A DNA stretch of 58,330 bases from NCBI GenBank assembly GCA_016930875.1, contig JAFGFW010000002.1:1-58330 (forward strand). Direction: 5' to 3'. Both the position numbers and the translations under genes were made by a program. Source of the DNA: Deltaproteobacteria bacterium (GTDB lineage: Bacteria; Desulfobacterota; Desulfobacteria; Desulfobacterales; C00003060). Each line of letters starts with the position of its first letter. The first letter of the stretch is position 1. Under the pieces are notes generated by a model, which worked only from the letters and a program-made list of their open reading frames with translations, was not told the origin of the DNA and searched no databases. Shown piece by piece: positions 24,019-27,711 of this stretch.

Positions 24019-27000
24019 ATGATTTTCAAAAAAATCAAGGCCTTTCTGAGAAAAATTCGCATGCCGGGCCTCTACGTTGGGAGGTCTTTGAAGACGGTCC
24101 CAGAAGGTTCGCTCGTGCTGTTTCCTTATGATCCTGCGGTTCTTAGCTGCGGGATCACGGGTGTTCTGGCCTTTAAGAAACCTTCTGTCGAGACAAATAA
24201 TTTCACGATTCGAGACCTTGAGCGCAAGTTTGAAACCCTCTTTGAACACTCCGGAAGAAGGCTCGAAAACAAGGACTTGCAATACAGGGGCAATTATCTT
24301 GGCGGCAGAATTCTCTTGGGAGAGATAAAACGCCTCTGTGACAAGTTCAAAGGCAACGATGTCTTTTTTGAAGCCTTTTCTGACAGGAGCTGCCAGGAGA
24401 AACTCTCAGATCTGAGTACGAAGCTCGAAGGCATGATCGATGCCGAAGACAGCGCCCTGATGGACAAAAAGGGGCGCGTGGAGGCAAAGGAATACAAGGA
24501 CATCACTCTTCGCCTAACTGAGTTGAAGGACATCTTCTGGTCCCTGAAACACGATGTTGTCGAGAACATTGAAAAGATAACTGCCCTCGCCAACCTTGAT
24601 GAATACGACAATAACCCGCTAGCCGTTGGCCTGTTAAAGGAGATCAACCTTATTTTCAACAATCTTGATCGCCTTGAAGTTAGGGGAAGAGATTCTGCCG
24701 GGATCTCCCTCCTGTTTTTAATGGATCAAACCGTCTTCTCACAATTCCGACAAGAACTCCAAGAGGAGTCCCTACTGGATGAATTTGAGGCCAGAAAAAA
24801 AGGCCTAGTCTTGGCCAATCGTAGCATCAAGGCCAACAGCCGGAGCCCTCACGAGGTATCTCTTGCATTCACGTATAAGACTGCGGCCGAAGTGGGTAGC
24901 CTTGGAGACAATGTTCAGTACTTGAGAAATCAGGTCGTTAAGGATGCCATATTTCAGCGTCTCATCAGGTTTGCCTTCGTACATCATAGCTTCGTGGCGC
25001 ACACCCGCTGGGCGTCTGTGGGTGAGATCAGCGAGGCCAATTGCCATCCTGTTGACAATTACCCAAGTGAGTCTGAAGGGATCATTCACGTTTGTCTTAA
25101 TGGAGACATTGACAACTACCAGAACCTCAGACAAAATTTCGAAAGAGAAACCGGCAAGTCTATTCCCAGCGAGATTACAACGGACACAAAAATCATCCCG
25201 CTCCACATACAGAAGTATCTTCTCAAGAAAAAAACCATGGAAGAGGCCTTCCGTCTTGCCGTAAGCGATTTCGAGGGTTCCCATGCCATTGCAATGCACA
25301 GCGATCTTGCACCAGGAAAGATCTTTCTCGCACAAAAGGGAAGCGGTCAGGCCATATTTGTGGGCCTGGCTGAGGATTATTATGTGCCGGCTTCCGAGAC
25401 ATACGGGTTTGTTGAGCAGACTTGCCGCTATTTGAAGATGGACGGTGAGACAGTGGCAGAAGGGATATCCGGCAAAACACAGGGACAAATATTCGTGCTG
25501 GATGGTGATTCTGAGGGAGGCCTTGAAGGCGTTAAGGCCATGTATTACGACGGAACTCCCATCGATCTTTCTGAAGATGATATCCGGGAAACCGAGATCA
25601 CCTCAAGAGACATAGACCGCCAGAACTATCCTCACTATTTCTTGAAAGAGATTTCAGAATCGCCGGGTTCCGTGGAACAGACTATTCAGGGACGATTGGC
25701 CATTCTTGAAAAAAACGGCGAAAAGCGCCCCCAGGTCCTCCTGGACTCTTCGGTCATCTCCCCTCGTCTGGAATCTGCCTTGAAGGGAAACAAAATACGT
25801 AAGGTCTTTTTCATAGGCCAGGGCACGGCAGGGGTGGCAGCCTCTGGATGCACGGTACTGCTGAGGGATTATTTTAACCACACGGATATCCGTGTGGCTT
25901 CCTTCAAGGCCTCTGAATTCAGTGGATTCATGCTCGACGATACTTTGGGGGACACCCTTGTTGTCGCCATCACTCAGTCTGGAACAACTACGGATACGAA
26001 CCGTGCTATTGACATGGCAAGGGCTCAAGGGGCTTTCACTCTGGCCATTGTCAACAGGCGGGATTCCGACATTACCTTTAAGGTGGATGGCGTGCTCTAT
26101 ACAAGCAGCGGCAGAGATATTGAGATGTCTGTGGCATCTACCAAGGCATACTATTCTCAAATTGTGGCAGGGAGCATCCTTGGCCTGAGGCTCGCCCAGT
26201 TGACCGGAAGCAGAACGGACGACTTCATTCTCTCAGAGATAGAACACCTTTGGAAGCTCTCCTCGTCTATGAACAGGGTGCTGGAAAGGCAAGAGGAGAT
26301 ACGTCAGTCAGCAGAAGAATTTGCAGTTACTAAGACAGACTGGGCCATTGTCGGAAGCGGCCCCAACAAGATATCCGCTGATGAGATCAGAATAAAACTC
26401 AGCGAGCTTTGCTATAAGAGCATTTCATCAGATGTAGTTGAAGACAAAAAACACATCGACCTTTCTTCCGAACCCTTGATTTTTGTTTGCGCCGCAGGCA
26501 ACCGGGACGATGTTATCAGTGATGTAGTGAAGGACACGGCCATATTCAAGGCCCACGAGGCCGTGCCGATTGTAGTTGCCACAGAGGGCGAGCATCGTTT
26601 TGATCCTTATGCCGCTTCGGTGATCTGGGTTCCTGATGTAAAAGAACGCCTTGCCCCCATACTTAACACCCTGGCAGGCCACTTATGGGGATATTATGCG
26701 GCCCTGGCCATCAACGAGGAATCCCGGTACCTCTTCAACTTCCGGGCGGAGATTCAAGAGCACATCGACACCTCCGTGAACAATGGCCTGGACGTTTACG
26801 AGATTGTGCTGGATAAGGCGTTCAGAGAAAAGACAGCGGAGTTCTATCGGGCATTCAAGGAGAGGATAAGACAAAACCGGTACGCCACGGCCATGGCAAT
26901 ACATGCTGCATCGGATCTGACGCTTTTGCTAAAGTACTTGGCAGGAAAACTCCCTATCAAGGATTTTGAGTTTGATTTCGGCACCAAGGGGACGGCGCCC

Positions 27001-27711
27001 AACATGCTAACGACCTTTTTCCGATGCATAGGAAAAATTATCAATGAAATGGCCCGCCCTGTCGACGCCATAAAGCACCAGGCCAAAACGGTCACAGTGG
27101 GTACAAGCAGGATCTCAGAAAAGGTGGAAGGCCTTCTATTTGAAGCCATCGAGCACCATGGGTTCACCAAGAGCCAGCTTACCACCCGCAATGTTTTGGT
27201 ATTAAGGCGTTTGCAGGAAGTCGTTGGCGAGATAAAGGGGACTACCATTTACCGAATAGCCGGCCTAAACATCTTGGGCGAGCCCGTTGAAGACTCGACT
27301 ATCAATATTCTAAAAAAAGAAGGAACGTCGGCGCTACTCGTCTCACAGGTGGAGGCTGATAACAGGCTGCGCGGTACCAAGCGAATAATAGTAAGAAACG
27401 GAAATGTCTATATCGGCAGAGGGAGAAGGGATGACAGGAGTTTCCTTGTAGTTCCGGTGATATCGACCGGCGCAAGAATTGATTACCTCTTGCTATTCGA
27501 TGTTGGATTCAAGGGCAAAATGGAACTGCAGAAGAAGGTGGATGCCTTAGGCGGCAAGTATAATCACATCCGAAATCTGGTTGAGGAAACAAGTCTTTCC
27601 TGGAAGGATGAGTATCTTGATCTGCTTGAGATTGAAGAGCTTTTTGGGATGTCTGCCGAGAAGATTTCCGAGCGTATCGCATCCGGGTTGAACAGTGGAA
27701 GTGGCCTATAG
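24019..27711 (+). CDS. giant GlmS-like glutamine amidotransferase-SIS protein
   Basis: A 1230-residue protein with GlmS parts in GlmS order but twice the usual 600-odd residues. Class II glutaminase: Cys44 in [11 protein letters not shown], then a helical insertion of roughly 120-160 residues, RGRDSAG (222-228), HTRWASVG (328-335) and LNGDIDNY (360-367). First SIS domain: [20 protein letters not shown] and [10 protein letters not shown] (about 595-730). Second SIS domain is at about 770-905, with EDKKH at 808-812 where GlmS has ELKH. A QAKTVTV segment at 1021-1027 resembles the GlmS C-terminal tail, followed by about 200 unrecognised residues. Cys44 is not N-terminal, so activation would need removal of a 43-residue leader. 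It could be a hexosamine or other amino-sugar synthase. AAGGA precedes the ATG. Confidence 0.8.

Follow-up and report, generated by a model that had tools for sequence, protein, structure and literature searches.

An enlarged, 1230-residue GlmS-like protein as the probable glucosamine-6-phosphate synthase of a deltaproteobacterium

The locus and its neighbours

The window analysed here is a stretch of 58,330 nucleotides from a deltaproteobacterium in which guaA, carB, purF, an Fe-ADH gene, a DegT aminotransferase gene, kdsB, a giant GlmS-like gene and pyrG follow one another in that order. The giant gene encodes 1230 amino acids from an ATG start, which is preceded by an RBS-like AAGGAA at 24007-24012, and its stop codon lies at 27709-27711. 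The features referred to below are as follows.

20662-23060 (+): Fe-ADH gene paired with a DegT aminotransferase gene, of KdnB/KdnA-like type (Pfam, NCBIfam)
23090-23839 (+): kdsB, CMP-Kdo synthetase, upstream neighbour (Pfam, NCBIfam)
24019-27711 (+): giant GlmS-like gene, 1230 aa (ORF, Pfam, NCBIfam, relatives)
24019-24147 (+): 43-residue leader before the nucleophile Cys (conserved motif, purifying selection)
24148-24150 (+): Cys44, equivalent to GlmS Cys1, the glutaminase nucleophile (57/57; directly follows ATG in leaderless orthologues)
24166-24663 (+): insertion 1, residues 50-215, without recognised relatives (motif spacing; mostly helical in a low-confidence model)
24682-24702 (+): RGRDSAG motif (orthologue alignment)
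24703-24984 (+): insertion 2, within residues 229-322, about 62 aa above canonical (motif spacing)
24985-25395 (+): glutaminase core with HTRWAS, NGDIDN and TTDT (GATase_6 at 323-459, E 1.8e-10, Pfam)
25795-26181 (+): SIS domain 1 ([13 protein letters not shown]), Pfam residues 593-721 (PF01380, E 1.7e-12)
26308-26709 (+): SIS domain 2 with Lys793, Glu796 and His812, E. coli Lys485, Glu488 and His504 (TIGR01135 to residue 897, hhalign, 57/57)
26713-27054 (+): insertion 3, residues 899-1012, from SIS2 to the tail (no match in Pfam/PDB searches)
27055-27099 (+): GlmS-type C-tail [15 protein letters not shown] with Lys1023, E. coli Lys603 (AKTVTV in 57/57)
27100-27708 (+): C-terminal extension, residues 1028-1230 (no Pfam/PDB relative; significant scores within the giant family only)
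27752-29398 (+): pyrG, CTP synthase, downstream neighbour (NCBIfam; likely start ATG 27752)

In the ORF list pyrG begins at a GTG at 27695, inside the giant gene; the ATG at 27752 is the likelier start. Many clades among the relatives have pyrG, on either strand, close to the giant gene, and some have kdsB and the Fe-ADH/DegT pair there. The Fe-ADH, DegT aminotransferase and kdsB genes, which stand in a row at 20662-23839, are candidate Kdo8N (8-amino-Kdo) genes, and are presumably similar to KdnB/KdnA/KdsB, the Kdo8N genes of Shewanella.

A GlmS core with added blocks

Several lines of evidence identify a GlmS core, composed of a glutaminase, two SIS domains and an AKTVTV tail, within the 1230-residue product. 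First, the motifs follow one another in GlmS order: Cys44-GITG, RGRDSAG (222-228), HTRWA (328), NGDIDN (361), QSGTT (653), VASTK (705), KLSE (793-796), KKH (810-812) and AKTVTV (1022-1027). Second, the glmS model TIGR01135 matches residues 324-897 with an E value of 4.8e-72 (HMMER, NCBIfam), and a profile of the giant family aligns with canonical GlmS at probability 100, E 4.6e-80 and 28% identity (hhalign). The first of the two tandem SIS domains is recognised by Pfam and the second by TIGR01135 and hhalign. The domain order and retained key motifs that a first-pass annotation had read from the sequence are thus borne out. Furthermore, 57 homologues have the same architecture, which indicates that the giant ORF is neither a chance reading frame nor an assembly error. 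Among individual members, a frame change breaks the giant of G032 (L085) into ORFs of 589 and 594 codons, and in G051 (L108) the open frame that holds the giant runs to 1948 codons, with some 700 preceding the leader.

The catalytic residues of GlmS have been named as Cys1, Glu488, His504 and Lys603 (PMC9272926). When 57 giant orthologues were aligned and read in E. coli GlmS numbering, the glutaminase residues Cys1, Arg73, Trp74, Asn98, Gly99 and Asp123 and the isomerase catalytic residues Lys485, Glu488, His504 and Lys603 were invariant in every one, as were Gln348, Ser349, Thr352 and Ser401 of the sugar-phosphate pocket; position 347 is Thr or Ser. All 57 also carry Ala at Ser303, a pocket position, Thr at Glu351 and Ser at Thr76. 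The changes at Ser303 and Glu351 count against a GlmS reading, as does a score of 243.3 bits, far under the curated TIGR01135 cut-off of 418.05. We do not assign the protein to the TIGR01135 equivalog because of this score and because of both ends of the chain. At the N-terminus, loss of Met would leave Cys as residue 1 in the leaderless orthologues but not in the primary product of the window gene. At the other end, all 57 sequences have AKTVTV and its Lys603 equivalent, yet mid-chain: GlmS stops at its KSVTVE tail, whereas 203 residues follow the tail of the giant protein.

The distances between successive isomerase-core motifs are 52, 86 and 19 residues, against 50, 85 and 19 in the reference, a canonical 608-residue GlmS of the same phylum. 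This spacing, within 2 residues of canonical, indicates that the catalytic machinery is not scattered and that new blocks lie between and behind its pieces, so that the earlier description of "dispersed catalytic parts" was too strong. By motif spacing there are five additions, all outside the isomerase core: +153 residues from Cys to RGxDSAG, +62 from RGxDSAG to HTRWA, about +39 from TDT to QSG (glutaminase to SIS1), +112 from KH to the tail and about +203 after the tail. The first-pass annotation had recognised the +153, +112 and +203 blocks and missed the other two.

For insertion 1, insertion 3 and the C-terminal domain, searches against Pfam and PDB profiles gave chance-level matches only, the Pfam search covering the window pieces and every member of the C-terminal-domain alignment. 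The AlphaFold2 models, built from an alignment of three closely related sequences, are of low confidence (pLDDT 36 for the mature protein and 39 for the C-terminal domain); in them insertion 1 is mostly helical. The C-terminal domain was not found outside the giant gene in the 26 genomes searched, and it is still 25-41% identical in distant family members. Our best guess, of low confidence, is that these added parts serve assembly, the processing of the leader or regulation; allosteric control is possible. As an addition to the GlmS reading and not an alternative to it, these blocks could form a nucleotide-responsive scaffold or allosteric unit (sensing, for example, CTP or UDP-GlcNAc) that links glucosamine-6-phosphate synthesis to the neighbouring PyrG and KdsB. 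The recurrence of pyrG in many clades and of kdsB in some, together with the conservation of the C-terminal domain, would fit such a unit, whereas no ligand-binding domain is recognisable with Pfam or PDB profiles, and we regard the idea as conceivable but doubtful.

Replacement of canonical GlmS

A match was found in 52 of 60 relatives, and it is the giant form in every case except G026, the only one of the 60 in which a canonical glmS exceeds the cut-off and one that lacks the giant; the giant form is present in nearly every sampled family of the order. Across 297 genomes of the phylum, the giant occurs in 37 (33 full-scoring and 4 distant) and canonical GlmS in 234. The two forms coexist only in G241, one of the 37 giant carriers (Fisher p 5e-28, a descriptive value, as the genomes are related by phylogeny). 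Neither enzyme type is found in 27 genomes (for example G016, 98% complete, and G041), and a missing canonical GlmS alone is therefore not proof of replacement. In the genome from which the window derives, however, glmM scores over its cut-off, GlmU-like pieces fall below theirs, and neither a second GlmS, for which a search had been proposed, nor a PF01182/NagB-family protein was found in the assembled sequence, which comprises all but a few percent. Given GlmM and the lack of any other GlmS/NagB-family protein, it is very probable that the giant gene encodes the glucosamine-6-phosphate synthase of its own organism, in an enlarged form that would work like GlmS.

The original idea of a GlmS-type amino-sugar synthase is supported. 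Ordinary conversion of fructose-6-phosphate to glucosamine-6-phosphate is much more likely than the new substrate that had also been suggested, since the protein retains every catalytic residue and most of the sugar-phosphate pocket and takes the place of canonical GlmS genome by genome. A GlmS-fold amidotransferase with some other sugar-phosphate acceptor, serving for instance the neighbouring Kdo-type pathway (Fe-ADH, DegT, kdsB), would account for the position beside kdsB and amino-sugar-type genes and for the changes at Ser303 and Glu351 in all members. It accords poorly with the mutual exclusion of the giant and canonical GlmS, with the full retention of catalytic residues and with the failure to find another glucosamine-6-phosphate source in the own genome or Kdo-type neighbours beside the giant in distant clades. 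We consider it very unlikely.

In a phylogenetic tree with many weak forks, the giants of G130 and G241, genomes of other families, fall inside the order of the window genome, and those of G162 and G036 fall inside the f76 clade. Such placements suggest lateral transfer and are what one would expect of a gene that moves and substitutes. No giant was found in viral contigs and plasmids.

The same-genus genomes G016 (L144, L154), G019 (L145, L153), G020 (L155, L160), G015 (L162) and G007 (L161), in which no giant was found, encode a divergent NagB-family protein of about 319 aa (145 bits against a cut-off of 237). It adjoins glmM in G015, G016 and G020 and kdsB in G015 and G020, and possibly it is an ammonia-dependent GlmS replacement in these giant-less members; it also lies near the giant gene in L104 and L105. 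The kdsB and pyrG genes, between which the giant stands in the window, are directly adjacent in G016 and G019. G041 (97% complete) has neither giant nor canonical GlmS, SIS proteins of only 333 and 206 codons (KdsD- and GmhA-sized) and a distant PF01182 protein. A second GlmS-like protein, of 1807 aa, coexists with the 1230-aa form in G045 (L087:814-6234, minus strand) and G025 (L086); it has an MCGI start, HGRWA, SIS and an AKSVTI tail followed by about 700 residues, the end of which weakly resembles the giant's C-terminal domain.

GlmS is an essential enzyme and a drug target, and its known versions have about 600-700 residues. A form of twice the size appears to stand in for the normal 610-residue enzyme in nearly all sampled families of this order, and its C-terminal extension is a new domain to study. 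Our literature search found no paper on such a form, which is, as far as that literature shows, an undescribed, conserved and widespread variant. Because it scores under the curated cut-off, automated surveys of pathways can list GlmS as absent from this order; in other phyla, absences of this kind have been taken as loss of the UDP-GlcNAc pathway (PMC7725333).

The leader, its removal and comparison with known systems

The leader is conserved as [VI][YF]FG[RK]....VP..[SA][IL]V[FL]FP......(C/N/S), without gaps up to the Cys. The 53 distinct leader-bearing sequences, taken from orthologues whose 5' end could be read, all have Pro at -8 (53/53) and all but two have Phe at -9 (51/53), and the residue preceding the Cys is variable (Cys in 36%, then Asn, Ser and Phe). 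Over the valid within-genus pairs the median dN of the leader is 0.23 against a dS of 1.45; it is under purifying selection and thus translated. Leaderless orthologues start Met-Cys (ATG-TGC), after an RBS or directly behind an upstream stop, as in G031 (stop-GCC-ATG-TGC), G032, G239 (GGAGG ATAGAT ATG TGC), G059 and G039 and in the distant clade G064/G101/G136/G160. Those included in the weakly resolved tree occupy three places among leader-bearing giants besides that clade. A frame error was rejected as the cause of the missing leader in G239, where the upstream DNA holds no leader in any frame and GGAGG precedes ATG-TGC, and so was selenocysteine at an in-frame TGA in G031 and G033, where the codons are the stop of the upstream gene and the gene's own stop.

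The Met-Cys starts support Cys44 as the N-terminus of the mature chain. The earlier claim that 43 residues would have to be removed for glutaminase activity is likewise supported. PurF enzymes are known to lose such leaders (PMC7056826), and the PurF of the same cluster, 4.8 kb upstream of the giant, has a 21-aa leader before its Cys; the simplest guess, by analogy, is self-cleavage. Should the leader instead stay on, the glutaminase would be inactive and free ammonia would be used as in NagB-type enzymes, an idea to which the variable residue before the Cys, leaving no obvious protease site, lends something. The invariance of the glutaminase Cys, Arg, Trp, Asn, Gly and Asp in 57/57 and the leaderless orthologues beginning Met-Cys argue against it, and we judge it unlikely. 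Natural orthologues with and without the leader offer material for testing class II amidotransferase maturation.

The reading we favour is an enlarged GlmS that is freed of its leader. Loss of the 43 residues from the precursor would leave Cys44 at the N-terminus as the nucleophile, the glutaminase would hydrolyse glutamine, and ammonia would reach the SIS domains through the Arg330/Trp331 gate. There Lys1023, Glu796 and His812 would convert fructose-6-phosphate to glucosamine-6-phosphate, which GlmM would carry onward to UDP-GlcNAc for lipopolysaccharide and peptidoglycan. A bolder proposal, which we place somewhat short of probable, is that the giants are a deep, separate lineage of glucosamine-6-phosphate synthases. 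Its members would be self-processing proenzymes, with a near-invariant Phe-Pro leader cut before the Cys, and would have a built-in regulatory or scaffolding shell that includes the C-terminal domain behind AKTVTV. In one bacterial order this lineage would have taken the place of canonical GlmS, and it would spread laterally.

Among known systems, the NagB-II/SIS-only glucosamine-6-phosphate deaminases (NF046059; PDB 3hba, 8eol) share the SIS fold but have no glutaminase, and the giant scores 56 bits against the NF046059 cut-off of 430. Eukaryotic GFAT (PDB 6r4e and others) is of GlmS fold and somewhat above bacterial size, and matches the giant at about 1e-20. It has 687 residues and is not known to have a long leader. 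No match links its additions or its regulation by UDP-GlcNAc (PMC7000685) to the blocks of the giant. PurF of the Bacillus/plant type is likewise a class II glutaminase, whose leader is removed to expose the Cys (PMC7056826), as we infer for the giant, but it has a different leader and a phosphoribosyltransferase instead of SIS domains. The closest counterpart is GlmS itself (E. coli, TIGR01135; PDB 2j6h, 4amv), with which the giant shares domain order, Cys nucleophile, catalytic residues, AK[ST]VTV tail and core spacing, and from which it differs in its twofold size, its leader, its inserts of +153, +62, +39, +112 and +203 residues and the changes of Ser303 to Ala and Glu351 to Thr.
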